Assembly (NCBI GenBank): GCA_003222395.1 | Contig: QHWB01000050.1 | Location: 62,001-126,000, forward strand | Reading direction: 5' to 3' | Source of the DNA: Acidobacteriota bacterium | GTDB taxonomy: Bacteria; Acidobacteriota; Vicinamibacteria; Vicinamibacterales; CAVVIG01 | Length of the DNA stretch: 64,000 nt | Part shown: piece by piece, positions 45,776 through 54,272 of the stretch | Layout: every line of letters begins with the position of its first letter | Position numbering within the stretch: the first letter of the stretch is position 1 | Notes under the pieces: generated by a model | The model's input: only the letters and a program-made list of their open reading frames with translations | The model's database searches: none | Told to the model about the DNA's origin: nothing | Position numbers and translations under genes: made by a program

Positions 45776-46795
45776 TCAGGGCTGCCTCGGCTGACTCGCC
45801 AGCAACTGGCGCGCGATCGTCACGTAGTGATCGGCGGCGGCGTGCAGCTCCGCAATGGAAACGAACTCGTCAGCCGTGTGCGCCGCGTGAATCGATCCTG
45901 GGCCGAACAGCAGCGGCTCGCCCCACTTCGACAGGAACGGGATGTCGGTCGTGTACGGAAACACGGCGGCGTCGAATCCAGGGACCGTCGTGAGACGGAT
46001 GGGCGGGACGTCGAGAATATGTTCGATCGCCACACGCCGTTCGAGCGGCGCGATCGCGCGGCGCACGGCGTCCGCGTCGCTGACCGTCCGGAACATCACT
46101 TCCGCCTCGGCGGACGGCGAGACCACATTCGGCGCGACGCCGCCGTCGATCAAACCGACCGTGTAATGCGTGCGGCCGAGGACGTGGTCGTCCGGCAGAT
46201 CGATCGACCGCAGCTCCACGAGCGCGTCGATCAGCTTGTCGATGGCCGATTCGCCCAGCTCGGGGAACGAGGAATGCGCGGCGCGGCCGCTCGCGCGGAG
46301 CCGCACGCGCAGAATGCCGCGCGTCGCCAGGCCGAGCCGGTTGTCGGTCGGCTCGCCGTCGATCAGGAATTGCGATCCATTCGCCGCCTCGTTGGCCCTG
46401 CGCGCTCCGTCGCTGCCGCGCTCCTCGCCGACGACGAACAGGAGCCCGACGCGCGTCTCGCCGTCGCGGCGCAGCCGATCGGCGGCGGCGACCTGCGCGG
46501 CGAGAATGCCTTTCGCGTCGCACGATCCGCGGCCGTAGAGGCGATCGCCGTCGACGCGGCTGGGAAAGAACGGCGGGACGCAGTCGATGTGGGTGGAGAA
46601 GACGAGGAACGGATCGTCGGTCCGTACGATCACATTGAACCGCGTCGAATCGATCGGCTGTTCGGTGACAACGAATCCGATGCGGGCCAGGTAATCGGCG
46701 AGCCAGCGCGCCGCGTCGCCTTCGCGGCCTGTCGTCGAATCGATGTCGATGAGGGCACGCGTCAGCGCGACAATATCGACCGCCACGCGCGTCAC
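45776..46795 (-). CDS. dapE: M20 peptidase, probable succinyl-diaminopimelate desuccinylase
   Basis: 339 aa from GTG 46795, with AGGA about 7 bases upstream. M20 family zinc ligands are in FSTHIDCVPP, GRGSCDAKG, GEERGSDG, DGEPTDN and SIHAAHTADEFV. M20 includes ArgE, DapE and CPG2 types, and sequence alone does not separate them. The location directly after dapD (a succinyltransferase) in a lysine operon makes DapE, which removes succinate from N-succinyl-LL-diaminopimelate, the best call. Confidence 0.8.
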   Translation of the reverse strand: MTRVAVDIVALTRALIDIDSTTGREGDAARWLADYLARIGFVVTEQPIDSTRFNVIVRTDDPFLVFSTHIDCVPPFFPSRVDGDRLYGRGSCDAKGILAAQVAAADRLRRDGETRVGLLFVVGEERGSDGARRANEAANGSQFLIDGEPTDNRLGLATRGILRVRLRASGRAAHSSFPELGESAIDKLIDALVELRSIDLPDDHVLGRTHYTVGLIDGGVAPNVVSPSAEAEVMFRTVSDADAVRRAIAPLERRVAIEHILDVPPIRLTTVPGFDAAVFPYTTDIPFLSKWGEPLLFGPGSIHAAHTADEFVSIAELHAAADHYVTIARQLLASQPRQP

Positions 46796-46816
46796 ACTGC
46801 GATCCTGGCCACCACA

Positions 46817-46876
46817 ATCAACGCAGAGCACACAGGGCAAGACCCGATCTGCGTTCTGGGCGGTCTCTGCGTTGAT
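46817..46876. repeat. Inverted repeat between dapD and dapE
   Basis: A perfect 12-base arm ATCAACGCAGAG (46817-46828) and its complement CTCTGCGTTGAT (46865-46876), with a 36-base loop. The words belong to the dispersed CACAGAG/CGCAGAG set seen near 34940, 42656 and 62005. It lies in the 91-base gap before the dapE GTG. Confidence 0.75.
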
Positions 46877-46886
46877 CGTAAGACGA

Positions 46887-47732
46887 TTACCGGATCCACG
46901 CTTCGAGCTCCGTGTGCGTGTCGGTGCGCGAGTCGCGGTACTTCACGATGACCGGCGTCGCGAGCGAGAGTCGCCACTCGAGCCCCTTCCCCGCGCTCAC
47001 GGCGCGCGCGCCAGGCACGACGACCGCGCCTTCGGGAACGACGAGCGGCCGATCGGCCGTCGGTCTGATGATGTCGCCGCGCACCAGATCGTACACCGGC
47101 GTCGACCCGGTCAGGACGGTGCCGGCGGCGATGACGGCGCGGGCCTTGACGATCGCGCCTTCGTACACCCCCGTGTTGCCGCCGATCAGCGCATCGTCTT
47201 CGATGATGACGGGCAGCGCGCCGACCGGCTCGATGACGCCGCCGATTTGCGCGCCGGCGCTGACGTGAACGCGGGCGCCGACCTGCGCACACGACCCGAC
47301 GAGCGCGTGAGAATCGACGAGCGACTGCTCGCCGACGTACGCGCCGATGTTGATGTACATCGGCGGCATGCAGATGACGCCGGGCGCGACGTACGCGCCG
47401 TCGCGGACCGCCGACCCGCCCGGCACGATTCGCACGCCGGCGGCGAGCCCGGGCCGTTTCAACGGGAGCGTGTCCTTGTCGTAAAACGGCCAGCGGCCGT
47501 GATCCATCGACACGTCGGCGGTGTCGCCGAACCTGAATCCGAGCAGGATGCCCTGCTTCACCCACGTGTTCACGCGCCAGCCGACCGGGCTCGACGCGTC
47601 GGGCTCCGCCGCGCGCACCTGACCCGACGACAGCGCCTCGCGCAGCTGCGCGAAGGTGGCTCGCACGGCGTCGCGATCGACCGACGCGCCGGCGGCGACG
47701 TGAGCGGCAATCTGATCGGAGAGAGAGATCAC
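46887..47732 (-). CDS. dapD: Tetrahydrodipicolinate N-succinyltransferase
   Basis: 281 aa from GTG 47732, which overlaps the dapA stop (GTGA); a longer frame to 47810 is a shadow inside dapA. An N-terminal helical domain (SLSDQIAAHVAAGASVDRDA) precedes the left-handed beta-helix of hexapeptide repeats (VAPGVICMPPMYINIGAYVGE, VGARVHVSAGAQIGGVIEP, IIEDDALIGGNTGVYEGAIV). DapD transfers succinate from succinyl-CoA to tetrahydrodipicolinate, which fixes the succinylase branch of lysine/DAP synthesis in this organism. Confidence 0.92.
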   Translation of the reverse strand: MISLSDQIAAHVAAGASVDRDAVRATFAQLREALSSGQVRAAEPDASSPVGWRVNTWVKQGILLGFRFGDTADVSMDHGRWPFYDKDTLPLKRPGLAAGVRIVPGGSAVRDGAYVAPGVICMPPMYINIGAYVGEQSLVDSHALVGSCAQVGARVHVSAGAQIGGVIEPVGALPVIIEDDALIGGNTGVYEGAIVKARAVIAAGTVLTGSTPVYDLVRGDIIRPTADRPLVVPEGAVVVPGARAVSAGKGLEWRLSLATPVIVKYRDSRTDTHTELEAWIR

Positions 47733-48628
47733 ACGAGCGCCGGCTTCACCAGATTGAGTTCTTTCAGGGCCTTCAAGATCTTCTCGCGCGATTCGGGCTT
47801 CGGCGGACACATCGGGAGGCGATAGGTTTCCTCGAGCAACCCCATTGCGGCCATCGCGGCTTTCACCGGGACGGGATTGGCCTCGATGAAATTGATCTGC
47901 ATCAGCGCGACGATCCGGTCGTGGACGGCTCTCGCCGCGGCGAAATCGTTTCTCTCCGCGGCCTCCACCATCTGCGCCATCTCCGCCGGAATCTCGTTCG
48001 AGGCGACCGAGATGATGCCGCGACCGCCGACCGACATCAGCGGCAGCGTCAGCGCATCGTCTCCTGAAAGGACGAGGAAGCTGTCCGGGACGCTGCGGCA
48101 GACGTCGACCATTTGCGTCACGTTGCCCGACGCTTCCTTCACGCCGACGATGTTCGGGATTTGCGCGAGCCGCGCAAGCGTCGCGATTTCCAAGTTCACG
48201 CCGGTGCGGCCGGGCACGTTGTACACGACGATCGGCAGCGCCGTGCTGTCCGCGATCGCCTTGTAGTGCTGATACAACCCTTCCTGTGTCGGCTTGTTGT
48301 AGTACGGAGTGACCGACAGGAAACCCGAGGCGCCGCGCTTCTCCATCTCACGCGCCAGCTCGATCACTTCCTTCGTGTTGTAGCCGCCCGCGCCCGCGAG
48401 GATCGGCACGCGTCCACCGGCCTCGGCGACGAGAATCTCGACGATGCGCAGCTTTTCCGCGTCGGTCAGCGTCGGGCTCTCGCCCGTCGTGCCGCAGGGA
48501 CACAGGAAGTGGATGCCGGCATCAATCTGCCGGCGGCCGAGGCGCCGAACGGCCGCTTCGTCGAGTGCAGCGCTCTTGGTGAACGGCGTGACGAGCGCGG
48601 TGCCGACTCCTGTAAATGCTTGGCGCAT
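47729..48628 (-). CDS. dapA: 4-hydroxy-tetrahydrodipicolinate synthase
   Basis: 299 aa TIM-barrel of the DHDPS/NAL family. Present are CGTTGESPTL, the catalytic Tyr in YNVPGRTG and the Schiff-base Lys in GVKEASGN. It condenses pyruvate with aspartate semialdehyde. GAGGGGAG precedes ATG 48628 at about 7 bases. dapB ends 12 bases upstream and dapD overlaps downstream, so the operon order is consistent. Confidence 0.95.
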   Translation of the reverse strand: MRQAFTGVGTALVTPFTKSAALDEAAVRRLGRRQIDAGIHFLCPCGTTGESPTLTDAEKLRIVEILVAEAGGRVPILAGAGGYNTKEVIELAREMEKRGASGFLSVTPYYNKPTQEGLYQHYKAIADSTALPIVVYNVPGRTGVNLEIATLARLAQIPNIVGVKEASGNVTQMVDVCRSVPDSFLVLSGDDALTLPLMSVGGRGIISVASNEIPAEMAQMVEAAERNDFAAARAVHDRIVALMQINFIEANPVPVKAAMAAMGLLEETYRLPMCPPKPESREKILKALKELNLVKPALV

Positions 48629-48640
48629 GAAACACTCCCC

Positions 48641-49336
48641 TCAGGACTGCAACCCGAGGACGTCCTTCATCGTGAACCAGCCGCGCTTCCCGACAACCCA
48701 CTTGGCCGCCGTGAGCGCGCCGCGCGCGAAGCCGGTGCGATCGCGTGCGGCGTGCGCCAACGTGATCGTTTCGGCCGGACCGTCGAATCCAATCGTGTGC
48801 GTGCCGGGAATGAAACCGGCGCGCGTCGACGACACGTCAATCGGACGCGCAAACCCCGCCCGCTCCATCGTCTGCTTCAACAGGAGCGCGGTGCCCGACG
48901 GCGCATCCTTCTTCGCCGCATGATGCGCCTCGTGGACGAACGCCCCGAAGTCGGATTGCGCCGCGAACAGCGCCGCCGCCCGACCGGCGATCGCCTCGAA
49001 CAGCACGACGCCGGTCGAGAAATTCGGCGCGACGACGGCGCCGATGCCGCCGTGGCCGACCGCCTCGCGCACGGCCGGCTCGTCCTTCTGCCATCCGGTC
49101 GTGCCGATCACGAGGTGAATCCCCCGCCGGGCGAGCACGGGCGCGTTCAACGCGACCACGTCGGGCGTCGAAAAATCGACGGCGACATCGACGCCGCGCC
49201 ACCGTTCCGCATCCGGTCCGCCGCCGTGCATCGGCGACTGCGGATCGATCGCGCCGGCGACATCGAACCCGAATTCCGGCGCCAGAGCCTCGACCAGCCG
49301 TCCCATCTTGCCGTGGCCGACGAGGAGGATCTTCAT
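48641..49336 (-). CDS. dapB: 4-hydroxy-tetrahydrodipicolinate reductase
   Basis: 231 aa. The nucleotide-binding start KILLVGHGKMGRLVE, the GTTGW motif (LVIGTTGWQKDE), ANFSTG-like VAPNFSTGVVLF and the substrate motif EAHHAAKKDAPSGTA identify DapB. It reduces the DapA product with NAD(P)H. It is slightly short for the family (usually 240-270 aa). The ATG overlaps the lysC stop (ATGA). Confidence 0.93.
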   Translation of the reverse strand: MKILLVGHGKMGRLVEALAPEFGFDVAGAIDPQSPMHGGGPDAERWRGVDVAVDFSTPDVVALNAPVLARRGIHLVIGTTGWQKDEPAVREAVGHGGIGAVVAPNFSTGVVLFEAIAGRAAALFAAQSDFGAFVHEAHHAAKKDAPSGTALLLKQTMERAGFARPIDVSSTRAGFIPGTHTIGFDGPAETITLAHAARDRTGFARGALTAAKWVVGKRGWFTMKDVLGLQS

Positions 49337-50706
49337 CGCCGTTCGAAAAACTGCTGGTGCAACCGCGTCATCGCGTGCGGCACATCGCCGTCGCGCAAGA
49401 CGAACGTGATGTTGCGCCTCGACGCCGCCTGCGACACGAGCCGGAGCGGCACGCGATCGAGCGCCGTCACCGCGCGCCCGAACAGCGTCGGATCCGTTCG
49501 GAGATTCTCTCCCACGGCGCAGATAATCGCCATCTCGCGCTCGCAGTTGACCTGCGCGAAATTGCGGAGGTTGTCGACGATGGCGTCCAGCCGGCGCGCG
49601 TCGTCCACGGTCACCGAGACGCTCACCTCCGACGTCGTCACGACGTCCACCGGCGTCTTGAATCGCTCGAACACCTCGAAGAGACGCCGAAGGAAGCCGT
49701 GCGCCATCAGCATGCGCGTCGACGTAATGTCGACAACGGTGACGTCGCGCTTGCAGGCAATCGCCGTCAGCTGACCGTCAGCCGCGCCGCCGTCGGCCGT
49801 GATGCGCGTGCCCGGCTGGTCCGGCCGTCGCGCGTTGAGGATGCGCACCGGGATGTTCCGGTCGACCGCCGGCAGGATCGTGCTCGGATGCAGCACCTTG
49901 GCGCCGAAATACGCCAGCTCGGACGCTTCGGCGAACGAGAGCTGCGGCACCACCCGCGGCTGCGGCACGATGCGCGGATCGGCGGTCAGCATGCCGTCGA
50001 CATCGGTCCAGATCTGAATCTCGTCGACGCCGAGGCACGCGCCGAAGATCGCCGCCGAGTAATCCGATCCGCCGCGCCCCAGCGTCGTCGTCACGCCGTT
50101 CGACGTCGATCCGATGAAGCCGCCGAGCACGGCGACTCTGCAGCGCGAGGCATGCGGCGCCACCCGGTCCCGCGTGCGGTCGGCCGTTTCGAGCATGTCC
50201 GGAACGGCGGCGTTGTACTCCGAGTCGGTAACGATTACGCCGCGCGCGTCGACCCAGACGCTTTCGATCCGGTGATCGGCGATCGCGGCGGCGACGATCC
50301 GGCTGCTGACCACCTCGCCCGCGGCGAGAACAGCGTCGAGCGAGCGCGGCGACACCTCGCGCAGCACGGCGAGCGCGTGCACGAGACCGATCAGTTCCTC
50401 GAATTCCTGACGAACCTTTGCGACCGTTTCTGCGCGGCTCTCGCTGGTCACCGCCGACGCGACGGCGACGTGGCGATCGAGGAGCGCACGCAGCGCATCG
50501 GCCGCCCGATCGGCCTCGCCGTCTTCGGCCAGCCGCGCGACCTGCACGAGCTGATCGGTCACCTTCGCGAGCGCCGACACGACGACGACCGGCGCGTCGT
50601 CGCCGCCCTTCTGCGATTCGAGCTGATGTCGAACGATGCCAATCAGACGCTTGATTGCTTCGGGATCGGCGACGGAGGTGCCGCCGAACTTCATGACAAC
50701 GCTCAC
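49333..50706 (-). CDS. lysC: Aspartate kinase, monofunctional
   Basis: 457 aa. KFGGTSVADPEAIKRL near the start and the kinase core LGRGGSDYSAAIFG are diagnostic. The C-terminal third contains ACT-type regulatory repeats (VTVVDITSTRMLMAHGFLRRLFEVF, SVTVDDARRLDAIVDNL, AIICAVGENLR), so feedback control by lysine or threonine is likely. Start GTG 50706 has GAGG at 6 bases. It gives aspartyl phosphate to Asd, encoded 49 bases upstream. Confidence 0.94.
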   Translation of the reverse strand: MSVVMKFGGTSVADPEAIKRLIGIVRHQLESQKGGDDAPVVVVSALAKVTDQLVQVARLAEDGEADRAADALRALLDRHVAVASAVTSESRAETVAKVRQEFEELIGLVHALAVLREVSPRSLDAVLAAGEVVSSRIVAAAIADHRIESVWVDARGVIVTDSEYNAAVPDMLETADRTRDRVAPHASRCRVAVLGGFIGSTSNGVTTTLGRGGSDYSAAIFGACLGVDEIQIWTDVDGMLTADPRIVPQPRVVPQLSFAEASELAYFGAKVLHPSTILPAVDRNIPVRILNARRPDQPGTRITADGGAADGQLTAIACKRDVTVVDITSTRMLMAHGFLRRLFEVFERFKTPVDVVTTSEVSVSVTVDDARRLDAIVDNLRNFAQVNCEREMAIICAVGENLRTDPTLFGRAVTALDRVPLRLVSQAASRRNITFVLRDGDVPHAMTRLHQQFFERR

Positions 50707-50755: not shown

Positions 50756-51793
50756 TCACAGGAATCCGTCCCGGTGCATCAGCTCAGCATTCAGAATCGC
50801 GACACCTGCCGCGCCGCGAATGGTGTTGTGGCCGAGCGCGATGAACTTGTAGTCAAGGATCGGACACGGACGCAGCCGCCCGATGGTGACCGTCATGCCG
50901 CGGCCACGGTCGACGTCGAGCGCAGGCTGGGGACGGTTGCGCTCGCGCAAGTACACGATCGGCTGCGCCGGCGCCGAGGGAAGGCCGTCGAGCGGCTTCG
51001 ACGACATCCACGCGTCGATGAGATCCTCTTCCGACGGCCGGTGATCGAATCCGACGGAGATCGATTCGGTGTGCCCGTTCTGCACCGCCACGCGCGTCGT
51101 CTGAGCGCTGATGACGACCGGATGCGGATCGATGCGGCGATCGCCGATGCAGCCGAGAATCTTCTTCGTTTCGGTTTCGATCTTGTGCTCCTCGCCGTCG
51201 ATGAACGGGATCACGTTGCCGAGGATGTCCCACGACGGCACGCCGGGATATCCCGCGCCGGAAATCGCCTGCAGCGTCGTGATCGTCACCTTGTTCAGAC
51301 CGAACGGGCGCAGAGGCGCGAGCGCCATCGACAGCACGACGGTCGAGCAGTTGGGGTTGGTGACGATGCGTCCCTTCCAGCCGCGCGCCGCCTGGACCTT
51401 CAGCAGCCCGAGATGATCGCCGTTCACTTCCGGAATCAGCAGCGGAACGTCGGATTCCATACGGTAGTTGCGCGAGTTGCTGACGATGGTGTGTCCTGCC
51501 TGCGCGAATGTGCCCTCGATCTCGCCGGCGACCGACGAGTCGAGACCGGAGAAGACGAGCCGCGGCGCGCGTCCCGGCGTCGCGGCGTCGACGTCGAGAT
51601 CGGCAACCGCGTCGGGAAGCGGCGTCGCGAGACGCCACGCACAGGCGTCGCGGTACTTCTTGCCTGCGGAGCGCTCGCTCGCGCCGAGCCATGCGACGCG
51701 GAACCACGGATGGTTCGAGAGCAGAGCAATGAACTGCTGGCCGACCATTCCGGTCGCGCCAAGGATGCCGATTTCTATCCGTTCAGTCTTCAT
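50756..51793 (-). CDS. asd: Aspartate-semialdehyde dehydrogenase
   Basis: 345 aa. The N-terminus is EIGILGATGMVGQQFIALLSNHPW, with the active-site Cys in NPNCSTVVL and the catalytic His in NGHTESISVGFD. Details such as FRVAWLGASERSAGKKY place it closer to the archaeal/fungal type of ASADH than to the E. coli type. It is the first gene of the lysine operon; the 155-base leader contains a peptide ORF and an intrinsic terminator described separately. Confidence 0.94.
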   Translation of the reverse strand: MKTERIEIGILGATGMVGQQFIALLSNHPWFRVAWLGASERSAGKKYRDACAWRLATPLPDAVADLDVDAATPGRAPRLVFSGLDSSVAGEIEGTFAQAGHTIVSNSRNYRMESDVPLLIPEVNGDHLGLLKVQAARGWKGRIVTNPNCSTVVLSMALAPLRPFGLNKVTITTLQAISGAGYPGVPSWDILGNVIPFIDGEEHKIETETKKILGCIGDRRIDPHPVVISAQTTRVAVQNGHTESISVGFDHRPSEEDLIDAWMSSKPLDGLPSAPAQPIVYLRERNRPQPALDVDRGRGMTVTIGRLRPCPILDYKFIALGHNTIRGAAGVAILNAELMHRDGFL

Positions 51794-51804
51794 GTTCGTC
51801 GCTC

Positions 51805-51840
51805 AAAAAAAAAGCCGACGCGGCGTGAACCGTGTCGGCT
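51805..51840 (-). terminator. Intrinsic terminator in the asd leader (attenuator)
   Basis: In the RNA sense the 5' arm AGCCGACACGG (51840-51830) pairs with CCGCGTCGGCT (51823-51813) with one mismatch and a 6-base loop, followed by nine Ts (51813-51805). It ends only 12 bases before the asd ATG, inside the transcript from the promoter at 51984, so it must be bypassed for the operon to be expressed. CGACACG in its 5' arm (51837-51831) is complementary to CGTGTCG in the leader ORF (51895-51889), a candidate antiterminator. Confidence 0.8.
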
Positions 51841-51880
51841 GCGTGATGGCTCGGTTGAAACTGGGTTGTTCAGCGCTCGA

Positions 51881-51946
51881 TCACACAGCGACACGACCGG
51901 CCCGCTTTCGGCCGATGTGCTTGCGCGTGGTGCTCTTCGAACGCAT
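51881..51946 (-). CDS. Putative 21-aa leader peptide of the lysine operon
   Basis: ATG 51946 to TGA 51881. The peptide starts MRSKSTTRKHIGRKRAG and ends VAV; it has Lys at 4, 9 and 14, Thr at 6 and 7, and five Arg. The ATG lies nine bases after the -10 hexamer. The stop is 40 bases before the terminator stem, and the last codons contain the segment able to pair with that stem. Lys and Thr are end products of the aspartate pathway, so ribosome stalling on these codons is a plausible sensor. Arg is also frequent, which weakens the specificity argument. Confidence 0.6.
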   Translation of the reverse strand: MRSKSTTRKHIGRKRAGRVAV

Positions 51947-51955
51947 GAGACGTGC

Positions 51956-51984
51956 AGTATAGAACGGGATGTGCACGAGGTCAA
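51956..51984 (-). promoter_or_regulatory. Sigma70-type promoter of the lysine operon
   Basis: TTGACC (51984-51979), a 17-base spacer and TATACT (51961-51956) on the minus strand. The -35 overlaps the stop codon of the upstream kinase gene. The predicted start is around 51949, only a few bases before the leader-peptide ATG. This is the closest match to the consensus in the window. Confidence 0.8.
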
Positions 51985-54272
51985 ACGACGAGCGGCCAGT
52001 CGTCCTGCGGGCTCTCGAGCGTCTCCCGCACCTTCACGAGGAGCCCGTCCATGGTGAACGGCTTGTAGATGAACGGCGCCGCGCCGTCGATCCCGAAGCC
52101 GGCGACCGCCTCCTCGGAGTGGCCCGACATGAACAGCACGCGCGTTTCGGCGTGCATCGCGAGGACGCGCTCGGCGACGACCGGCCCGCTCATGCGCGGC
52201 ATGACGACGTCGGCGAGCAGCAGATGGATGGCCGCCGCGTAGTTGCGCGCGATGGAGAGCACGTCTTCGCCGTTCGATCCCTCGAGGACGCCGTAGCCCG
52301 CCTTCCGCAGCGCGTGCGCGATGAGCGTCCGCAGATGGTTGTCGTCCTCGGCGACCAGGATCGTTTCCGACCCGAAGAGCAGCGACCCCGCGTCGCCCGC
52401 GTGCACGGCGACCTCCGCCGGATCGACCGCCGCGAGCCGCGGGAAATAGACGCGGAACGTGGTGCCGTGTCCGACGTCGGTCTCCACGTCGATCATGCCG
52501 CCCGCCTGCTGCACGATGCCGTACACGATCGCGAGCCCGAGGCCCGTTCCCTCGCCGACGCCTTTGGTCGTGAAGAACGGTTCGAAAATGCGCGACGCCG
52601 TCTGCGCGTCCATGCCGTGGCCCGAGTCGGCGACCGACAGGCACACGTGCTTGTGCGGAAGCGGCTCGCGCTGGATGTCGTTCACGGCGGCGGCCACGTC
52701 GACAACGCCGACCGCGATGCGCAGTGCCCCGCCGTTCGGCATCGCGTCGCGCGCGTTGATCACCAGGTTGAGCAGCACCTGCTCGATCTGCCCGCGGTCT
52801 GCGCGCACGTAGCCGACGTCGGGCTCGAACTCGGTCGTGAGCTGGATGTCCTCGCGGATCAGACGGCGCAGCATCTGCTCGGTGGAGGCGACGACCTGAT
52901 CGATGGCGATCGGGCGCGCGTTGGTCGCCTGCCGCCGGCTGAACGTCAGCAGCTGCTTGGTGAGATCGCCGGCGCGATCCACCGCCGCGACGATCTCGGT
53001 CAGCTCTTCGTGACATGGATCGCGCGCCGTCACCTGCAGCAGCGCGAGCTCGCCGTAGCCCCTGATCGTCGTGAGGATGTTGTTGAAGTCGTGCGCGATG
53101 CCGCCGGCCAGGCGGCCGACGGCTTCCATTTTCTGTGTTTGCCGCAGCTCCTCGTGGCGCCGTTTGGCCTCTTCGGACCAGTGCCGCAGGCTCTCGGCCA
53201 TGTCGTTGAACGCACGCGCGAGGACATGCGCCTCGGCGGTTCCGCGCACGGCGACACGCCGCGTCCAGTTCCCCGATGCGATGTCGCCCGCCGCCGCGGC
53301 GATGTCTTCGAGGGGACGGCTGACGCGCCGCGCGAACCCGAGCCCGCCGGCGAGCGCGACGACGAAGATGATGCCGCCGGCAAGCGCCAGCTGCCGCCGC
53401 AACCGGGCGAGGTAGCCGCGCGTCGGCGCCCAGTCCTGCAGGAGCAGCAGCCGCGCCGCATCGCTCGATCCGCCGTCGAGCAGGAACGGAAACGCTGACG
53501 CGACGTATTCGTTCTCGCCGAGCCGTTCCATCCGTGCGTTGCCATCGGTCGGCGTCATGCCGCCGTTCGCCACGCGTTCAGCCAGATCCGAGCGCTGCCG
53601 ACCCGACAGGCTCGTGGCCGCAAGCCTTCGCCCGACGATGATGTTGACGTCGCAGTGCGTGATCTCGGCGAGCTGCGAGGCCGCCGTATCGTCGAGCGCG
53701 TAGCCGACGGTCAGCGAGCCGAGCGTGTCTTCCGCAAACCGGGCCGGCTCGGAGACGACGAGGAACAGCCGGTCGCGGACGTCGGTGATGTCACGGATCG
53801 ACTCTCCGCGCGACGACGCCGACACGATGCGCTGAATCCGCGCGTCCGGCTGCATGTCGTAGGCAAGGCCGGCGCGCGCGATCGGCGCGCCGTCGCGCCC
53901 CGTCACCAGACAGAACGCGGCGTTCAGCTGCTGCCGGTATTCATCCACCATCACCTGCATCGTCGCCGCGTCGCGGACCAGGCGCGAGTCGGTCATGTGG
54001 GCGCGAAAGACGGGCAGCGACGTGACGAGCGTGGCCTGGGACGCGGCGAAGGCCGCGCGATCGTCCTGCAGGCGCCGCAGCGCCGAGCGCGCGGCGGCGA
54101 GCTCGGTCGACGCGCGCGCGAACGCGCCGTCGGTCACCACGCGCGTGGCAATCATCAGCGCCGTGATCAGCGCGAACGCCACCAGCAGCGTGAGCGCCAC
54201 GATGACGTGCGTTTCGAGTCGGCGATGGACGCCGAGGCCCAGCTGCGCGCGGTTGAAGCGGTTCGGAGTCAT
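51981..54272 (-). CDS. Hybrid sensor histidine kinase
   Basis: 763 aa from ATG 54272, which overlaps the porin stop (ATGA). Order: TM1 (about 22-45), periplasmic sensor of about 250 residues (CACHE-like), TM2 (LALAGGIIFVVALAGGLGF), HAMP, HisKA with H-box His394 in GGIAHDFNNIL, HATPase with NLVINARDAMPNG, DSGHGMD, FEPFFTTK and GTGLGLAIV, and a C-terminal receiver with Asp688 (ADVVMPRMSG) and the late Lys in FIYKPF. There is no separate response regulator and no DNA-binding domain, so output must pass to another protein. It is the third gene after the cupredoxin and porin. Confidence 0.9.
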   Translation of the reverse strand: MTPNRFNRAQLGLGVHRRLETHVIVALTLLVAFALITALMIATRVVTDGAFARASTELAAARSALRRLQDDRAAFAASQATLVTSLPVFRAHMTDSRLVRDAATMQVMVDEYRQQLNAAFCLVTGRDGAPIARAGLAYDMQPDARIQRIVSASSRGESIRDITDVRDRLFLVVSEPARFAEDTLGSLTVGYALDDTAASQLAEITHCDVNIIVGRRLAATSLSGRQRSDLAERVANGGMTPTDGNARMERLGENEYVASAFPFLLDGGSSDAARLLLLQDWAPTRGYLARLRRQLALAGGIIFVVALAGGLGFARRVSRPLEDIAAAAGDIASGNWTRRVAVRGTAEAHVLARAFNDMAESLRHWSEEAKRRHEELRQTQKMEAVGRLAGGIAHDFNNILTTIRGYGELALLQVTARDPCHEELTEIVAAVDRAGDLTKQLLTFSRRQATNARPIAIDQVVASTEQMLRRLIREDIQLTTEFEPDVGYVRADRGQIEQVLLNLVINARDAMPNGGALRIAVGVVDVAAAVNDIQREPLPHKHVCLSVADSGHGMDAQTASRIFEPFFTTKGVGEGTGLGLAIVYGIVQQAGGMIDVETDVGHGTTFRVYFPRLAAVDPAEVAVHAGDAGSLLFGSETILVAEDDNHLRTLIAHALRKAGYGVLEGSNGEDVLSIARNYAAAIHLLLADVVMPRMSGPVVAERVLAMHAETRVLFMSGHSEEAVAGFGIDGAAPFIYKPFTMDGLLVKVRETLESPQDDWPLVV

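Follow-up and report, generated by a model that had tools for sequence, protein, structure and literature searches.

A predicted lysine attenuator with a nearly leaderless ORF before the asd-lysC-dap operon of an Acidobacteriota bacterium

Introduction

Leader-peptide attenuation is a known mechanism, and excerpts of the literature also describe leaderless attenuator ORFs and a Thr/Lys-rich small ORF upstream of an aspartate-metabolism gene. In the proteobacterial Thr, His, Leu and Trp leaders, a short ORF carries codons for the end product of the operon, the RNA can fold as an antiterminator or a terminator, and the position of the ribosome sets the switch (PMC3766115, PMC4046918; in the parts of these papers used here). 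The excerpted text of a 2013 survey gives His, Leu, Thr, Trp, Ile/Val and Phe as the specificities of amino-acid attenuators and suggests a gammaproteobacterial origin for the attenuator motifs (PMC3766115). Leaders whose ORF begins the transcript have also been reported, in the passages cited here. For example, the leaderless trpL of Sinorhizobium meliloti has its ORF at the 5' end of the transcript and acts by transcription attenuation; it reads Trp, belongs to an alphaproteobacterium, and its translation has been shown by Ribo-seq (PMC10117765, PMC7298713). The mycobacterial polycysteine ORFs are likewise leaderless short ORFs with codons of the controlled amino acid, and they are described as regulating translation of the downstream genes (cited in PMC9031893). 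A third case is the SEP5 small ORF of S. meliloti, which has Thr and Lys codons, lies in the 5' UTR of a gene for aspartate dehydrogenase and has been suggested to be regulatory; it is said to be confined to Sinorhizobium in its conservation, and its excerpted description mentions no terminator or antiterminator (PMC10117765).

For lysine and methionine genes, riboswitches are known instead, the L-box and the S-box. In front of the lysine or methionine operons of Actinobacteria, a survey found, in its excerpted text, no RNA regulatory structure that is conserved (PMC1262725). The L-box (RF00168) controls lysine genes in other bacteria by binding lysine directly. Searches of open-licence papers in PubMed Central turned up no leader attenuator for lysine or methionine.

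The locus described here is very probably a ribosome-mediated transcription attenuator that reads the supply of lysyl-tRNA ahead of a lysine operon, as judged from its sequence and that of its relatives. It differs from the Thr, His, Leu and Trp leaders, as excerpted above, in its Lys (or, in some relatives, Met) specificity, in its phylum, in having no Rfam match at the gathering score, and in an ATG near the predicted 5' end that mostly lacks a Shine-Dalgarno-like motif. Compared with trpL it would read Lys, and its translation is predicted; unlike the polycysteine ORFs, it is followed by a transcription terminator; unlike the lysine genes under L-box control, the leader in the window has no L-box match. 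Among the open-access papers searched, nothing similar appears to have been described as regards the Lys and Met specificities, the phylum or the visible shift from one sensed amino acid to another.

The leader and its operon

The window is the whole 64,000-nt stretch of DNA that was analysed; the genome it comes from (G000) comprises 7.74 Mb in 118 contigs as searched. Its Asd suggests that the genome belongs to Acidobacteriota: at 66-77% identity, the 16 best named relatives of this protein come from Acidobacteria, Luteitalea, Vicinamibacteria and Vicinamibacterales MAGs. The genes of the operon and the elements of the leader are listed in Table 1.

Table 1. Operon genes and leader elements in the window
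Feature	Position	Strand	Remarks
-35 hexamer TTGACC	51979..51984	-	overlaps kinase stop codon (51983-51981)
-10 hexamer TATACT	51956..51961	-	17 nt from -35; best -10 match before 45/74 leaders
Predicted transcription start zone	51947..51950	-	a few nt 5' of the ATG; predicted, giving a nearly leaderless transcript
Leader ORF MRSKSTTRKHIGRKRAGRVAV	51881..51946	-	21 codons; same frame as the ORFs of relatives
Lys codon 4 (AAG)	51935..51937	-	
Segment 1 AGCACCACG	51926..51934	-	able to pair with segment 2
Lys codon 9 (AAG)	51920..51922	-	
CGA Arg codon adjoining the control codon on its 5' side	51908..51910	-	CGA in 51/74 leaders
Control codon of the alignment, Lys codon 14 (AAG)	51905..51907	-	AAG in 67/74 leaders
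Segment 2 CGTGTCGCTGTGTGAT, antiterminator 5' arm	51880..51895	-	overlaps leader stop codon
Antiterminator 3' arm, with segment 3 within it	51831..51847	-	by folding; covariation and permutation in relatives
Terminator hairpin (segments 3 and 4)	51813..51840	-	-18.4 kcal/mol; covariation in relatives
Nine-T tract	51805..51813	-	11 bases 5' of asd; terminator stem runs into the tract
asd	50756..51793	-	Pfam
lysC (AA_kinase and ACT)	49333..50706	-	Pfam
dapB	48641..49336	-	Pfam
dapA	47729..48628	-	Pfam
dapD	46887..47810	-	Pfam
M20 peptidase-family gene	45776..46840	-	Pfam; presumably dapE-like, by position

An earlier note on this DNA, made from the letters alone, had proposed a leader-peptide attenuator at this place, and the parts it named (promoter, ORF, complementary segment, terminator and T run) are all present where it had put them. 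The ORF reads as it had claimed, with Lys at codons 4, 9 and 14 and Thr at codons 6 and 7. A promoter scan of 51000-53000 returns the TTGACC-17-TATACT pair as the sole promoter-like site (0.1 in shuffled sequences, sd 0.4). The ATG lies 9 nt past the -10 box, a spacing from which leaderless translation of the ORF may be inferred. Measured against nine window genes, three Lys in 20 residues is more than expected from the Lys frequency (P = 0.0066), and so are the five Arg (P = 0.023).

Folding and comparison place an intrinsic terminator between the ORF and asd, and an antiterminator that excludes it and overlaps the end of the ORF. The leader stretch folds better than shuffled versions of itself (z -3.35; 1/200 shuffles as good). 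A simple terminator scan of 51000-53000 found none (1.0 in shuffles), and a second scan found the hairpin; the first probably missed it because the stem has a mismatch. The complementarity between segments 2 and 3 that the note had reported is real, but it is longer than the 7 bases given there: RNA folding yields a 16-bp stem with one bulge, in which 51895-51880 pairs with 51847-51831. Folded as one piece, the RNA that runs from segment 2 halfway into the terminator reaches -29.9 kcal/mol, against -18.4 for the terminator hairpin. Segments 1 and 2 can pair at 6/8 positions in the window, two of which differ on both sides from the majority of the window's family (f1).

Conservation across the order

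How widely is this leader kept? Among 162 genomes of the order, an Asd search gave a match in 143, weak ones included, and 109 upstream regions were read. A short ORF with a terminator stands before asd in 70/109. Four further copies occur at dapB loci (G028, G034, G035 and G063), which brings the total to 74 leader copies in 11 families. The leader directly precedes lysC (recognised by eye from its first residues) in G028, G034 and G035 (f2), whose asd is at another place, and in G064 it precedes a different, gamma-type asd. The 39/109 asd upstream regions without a leader (21 in f14, 5 in f13, 13 elsewhere) include some that are cut by contig ends. In three f13/f14 genomes checked (G123, G128, G150), lysC is directly 5' of asd. 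One genome of the window's own family (G009, locus L085) has no leader; its asd immediately follows a TATACT box, which looks like a deletion of the attenuator.

The aligned control position is AAG in 67 leaders, ATG in 5, ACG in 1 and GAG in 1 (n = 74); the ATG of G066 is an alignment slip, with an AAG two codons earlier. The control codon is in frame in 73/73 leaders read, and it starts 9-32 nt upstream of the column of the GTCGG core across the 74. Lys codons make up 163/1987 codons in frame, compared with 7/1913 and 93/1913 in the other two frames. The script that picked these ORFs accepted peptides with K, R.R/RR or M.M; 17 leader starts and 3 terminators were set by hand, and 3 further starts were placed from the CGAAAGCGGGA anchor. 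A choice blind to the peptide, made in the 70 regions with a terminator, gives an ORF in 46; Lys is present in 44/46, and the remaining two are Met leaders.

From the -10 box to the start codon there are 8-13 nt in 59/74 leaders, and a Shine-Dalgarno-like motif is seen in 5/74. A leaderless start would not be universal, because in four f1 genomes the ATG lies 39-109 nt away from the -10 box. In one genome (G015, L086), a repeated insert, GGTCCGGCTAAAGC..., has come between the two, so that 109 nt now separate the leader ATG from the -10 box, and the ATG has an AG-rich stretch on its 5' side.

The earlier note had asked for conservation among relatives and for compensatory pairing. As to the first, the Lys codons, the stem and the T run are all kept.

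Alternative helices

A single fixed-column structure for all 74 leaders was tried and dropped. The terminator of f1 pairs in another register than the rest, so covariation was counted on two alignments separately. The first, A3, holds 46 sequences, namely 44 of the 49 non-f1 leaders together with G011 and G012 of f1; G086, G087, G088, G156 and G159 were omitted from it as close to others. The second, A1, holds 25 f1 sequences. In A3, paired cells make up 83.3% of the terminator, and 27 cells show two-sided changes against 13.6 (sd 2.9) in shuffles that ignore relatedness, with 0/500 shuffles as high. For the antiterminator, counted in the same way, the values are 76.0% and 38 cells against 20.5 (sd 4.3), again 0/500. 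Both helices do worse when the pairing partner is slid. Two further A3 counts do not stand clearly above the shuffles: further pair types in the terminator (167/500) and antiterminator pairs changed on both sides (32/500).

With one leader per genus (n = 41), segment 2 pairs with its own segment 3 at an average of -22.6 kcal/mol, compared with -18.9 when partners are permuted, and 0/10000 permutations are as low; the same holds when whole families are permuted (0/10000). Taken singly, 34/74 leaders pair better than shuffles at p < 0.05, with 0/17 in f12. In f1 by itself, the helices persist without any covariation in terminator or antiterminator, and covariation between segments 1 and 2 is weak. 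Between families, the compensatory pairing asked for is found in both alternative helices.

When a ribosome is placed at the control codon, with its edge assumed to lie 12 nt past the first base of that codon, at least 5 pairs form between segments 2 and 3 in 69/74 leaders; when it is placed at the stop codon, the terminator forms in 73/73 (both by folding, without a shuffled control). A GNRA tetraloop at CGAAAG, suggested by eye, was rejected, as its flanks are unpaired.

A covariance model was built from the 46 sequences of A3, which include two f1 relatives and leave the window sequence out. Searched against the 7.7-Mb window genome, it ranks the window leader first (40.9 bits, E 1.2e-4), and the next match reaches 24.4 bits (E 0.19).

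Could the hairpin simply terminate the upstream kinase gene, with an ORF beside it by chance? The kinase gene does end just 5' of the leader promoter. However, the sequence 5' of the promoter varies among relatives while the leader stays, the alternative helix covaries and the codons match the pathway, so that this explanation has next to no probability. The attenuation logic of the earlier note, by contrast, withstood those refutation tests that could be run, with codons, helices and terminator kept in relatives.

Which signal is read?

One alternative to a translated leader is an RNA that binds a small molecule, be it an L-box or a new aptamer for lysine; a leader bound by a protein is another. 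The nucleotide-level conservation of CGAAAGCGG would fit such an element. However, an Rfam scan of the window returns no family at the gathering cut-off, including the L-box RF00168, the T-box and the Thr, His, Leu and Trp leaders. At E <= 1, the stretch 51700-52100 yields no Thr, His, Leu or Trp leader and no T-box, and only two weak, unrelated Rfam matches. RF00168 was found in 0 of the 162 genomes of the order and in 4/14 control genomes, in a search whose stricter filters may lose weak matches. An L-box, which the earlier note had called not apparent, was thus found neither in the window nor in these genomes of the order. Moreover, the conserved positions keep to the reading frame, and in front of a methionine operon they are occupied by Met codons. 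A riboswitch or a protein-bound leader is therefore extremely unlikely. As a separate observation, a weak match to the end of the Pseudomonas sRNA P6, at 51800-51841 on the plus strand, corresponds to the terminator hairpin on the opposite strand.

Natural variants bear on the amino acid. Lys codons occur in 70/74 leaders, and exactly four lack them: G055, G057 and G058 (f9) and G045 (f3). These four carry Met instead, as AAAMRMMAMRM in G055 and G057 and, more weakly, as ..LMSMRS.. in G045. They precede asd, followed by lysC (a fragment in G058) and methionine genes: a MetX-type gene lies downstream in all four, an O-acetylhomoserine sulfhydrylase gene in G045, G057 and G058, and a homoserine dehydrogenase gene in G055, G057 and G058. 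No match to dap genes was found within about 8 kb behind these leaders, whereas Lys-type loci read in the same way have dapB and dapA downstream in 13/13. Nor was dapB found in the genomes of the four Met leaders; it was not found in 12/26 genomes examined (five f9, three f3, four f13), some of which are incomplete drafts. Some relatives thus seem, from their sequences, to have switched this device from lysine to methionine. Another f9 genome (G059) has a Met-rich leader before a sulfhydrylase gene (by eye); its hairpin failed the terminator scan and has no good T run, and an asd of this type was not found there in the Asd search.

A second set of variants precedes lysW. This gene is preceded by a leader containing RKRK, or nearly so, in G118, G122, G123 and G124 (f13), in G127 (f14) and, by reading, in G125 (f13); G126 has only a remnant. 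In G122, the genome in which the following genes were scanned, lysW is followed by lysX and an argC/lysY-type gene. In f13, where the Lys leader precedes a LysW operon, dapB was not found where tested. The other 14 genomes with lysW above the cut-off, mostly of f12 and with another lysW type, have no such leader, and no terminator was found at the lysW loci of G075, G099, G113, G114 and G126.

The codon next to the control codon is also unusual. Among Arg codons directly 5' of a Lys codon in the leaders, 83/91 are CGA; the corresponding figure for all Arg codons of nine window genes is 17/305. An assay of the Salmonella his leader, as given in the excerpted account, shows slow reading of CGA (PMC4046918). 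A slow CGA adjoining the control codon could, by analogy, lengthen the pause there, or the nucleotides of CGAAAGCGG may matter for another reason: the motif is conserved at the nucleotide level, and codons alone need not explain it.

What, then, of arginine? The earlier note had left the sensed amino acid uncertain on the ground that Arg is more frequent than Lys. Arg is indeed commoner, at 17.9% of residues over all leaders compared with 8.2% for Lys, and this abundance, together with the CGA bias and the slowness of CGA in the Salmonella leader, is what an attenuator sensing arginine, or arginine and lysine together, could be built on. However, Arg is retained in the Met leaders, in which Lys is missing, and hence does not track the product of the operon. 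The operon makes precursors of lysine and not of arginine, and where asd is separate, the leader stays with lysC and the dap genes. The leaders before LysW operons are a weaker point and are not decisive on their own, because LysW routes can serve arginine as well. Sensing of arginine is therefore very unlikely. Since Lys codons are absent where the operon makes methionine, and since Lys leaders precede LysW operons, lysine rather than arginine is most likely the sensed amino acid, and the doubt raised in the note is largely settled for Lys by these natural variants.

The note had also regarded the Lys and Thr codons together as signals of the pathway. The Lys part holds, with Lys present in 70/74 leaders, whereas Thr codons are no constant feature. 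If Lys were sensed jointly with other amino acids of the aspartate family, Thr or Ile, then Thr 6 and 7 of the window would be functional, and leaders of f15, f6, f7 and f10 are indeed Thr-rich or Thr/Ile-rich and yet keep Lys, for example MTRTIITITVTTRKR.. in G155. On the other hand, the Thr position is not fixed in f1, and in the window the two Thr codons start 36 nt (codon 6) and 33 nt (codon 7) 5' of segment 2. Joint sensing is thus unlikely for the window, without being far-fetched.

Related leaders

Outside the order, the covariance model matches 20 genomes at E <= 0.01, where chance alone should give a few, and 11 of them belong to one family, f24 (L306, L310, L341-L349). A His-rich short ORF is present in 11/11 of these, and a HisI- or HisG-like ORF follows 10/11 leaders (by reading); NCBIfam confirmed both that were tested. 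The other 9 matched genomes show no recognisable leader on inspection. Within the order, a His-rich ORF with a terminator was seen at 23/30 hisI loci read, G000 included, which is an upper estimate because the most His-rich candidate was taken. At the hisI locus of G000, outside the window (contig C34, about 163750-163960; L364), a His-rich ORF, MFRVRHRARHHHRHLAAERA, begins 9 nt past a TACCCT box and is followed by a GC hairpin with a T run; this is likely a His attenuator.

Other loci of the order hold leader-like elements as well. In G064 (L359, first 200 bases after reverse complement), a Thr-rich leader, MSTGGATTITTTKRIMRIRK.. (MSTGGATTITTTKR..), with TATACT 9 nt upstream and a terminator, precedes an ORF that resembles homoserine kinase by eye. 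The homoserine dehydrogenase loci L235 (G007) and L240 (G025) have a short ORF and then a terminator; the ORF of L235 reads PTTTLLLTIG..LPLPL, that of L240 is similar by eye, and these are perhaps Thr or Leu attenuators. Near a homoserine dehydrogenase match in G000 (L247, contig C14, about 441329-442444), the sequence resembles by eye the core of a SAM riboswitch. In G101 (L307, f12), a leader-like ORF, MFGTACCPVISIIGTPATAGMGMRSCITGAGAEQ, lies 5' of a terminator.

Proposed mechanism

Attenuation by lysyl-tRNA supply, the preferred reading, draws on what comparison of the relatives offers: the ORF, the in-frame conserved Lys codon, two alternative helices that covary across families, the terminator, and codons that suit the pathway. 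The events themselves, from the start site and leaderless translation to stalling, termination and read-through, are predicted. RNA polymerase would start at or a few bases from the leader ATG, and a ribosome would load on the nearly leaderless message. With ample charged Lys-tRNA, this ribosome would reach the stop codon and cover segment 2, leaving segment 3 free to pair with segment 4 as the terminator, and the lysine operon would be off. With lysine short, the ribosome would wait at the AAG of codon 14 (or 9). A ribosome waiting at codon 14 should just leave segment 2 free, because this codon starts 12 nt upstream of it; its front edge would lie at about the 5' end of segment 2. Segment 2 could then form the 16-bp pairing with segment 3, and with this antiterminator in place the terminator would not form and asd-lysC-dapBAD-M20 would be transcribed.

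Implications

What might these leaders mean for the group? A broader picture can be put forward tentatively, with rather less than even confidence. The amino-acid operons of Acidobacteriota may be served by one re-programmable family of nearly leaderless attenuators. In Vicinamibacterales, its Lys version would carry a slow CGA as a built-in brake before the AAG. The codon may have been exchanged in place, from CGA-AAG to CGA-ATG by one base in the codon, when the DAP route to lysine was lost and the operon turned to methionine, and the same type of leader may have come to stand before the unrelated LysW route in another lineage.

With a Lys-reading attenuator spread through an order of Acidobacteriota, and with its Met and His cousins, both the known specificities and the known origins of such leaders would become more numerous. 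The Lys and Met versions would together amount to a natural experiment, in which a regulatory RNA changes its signal with its architecture unchanged.
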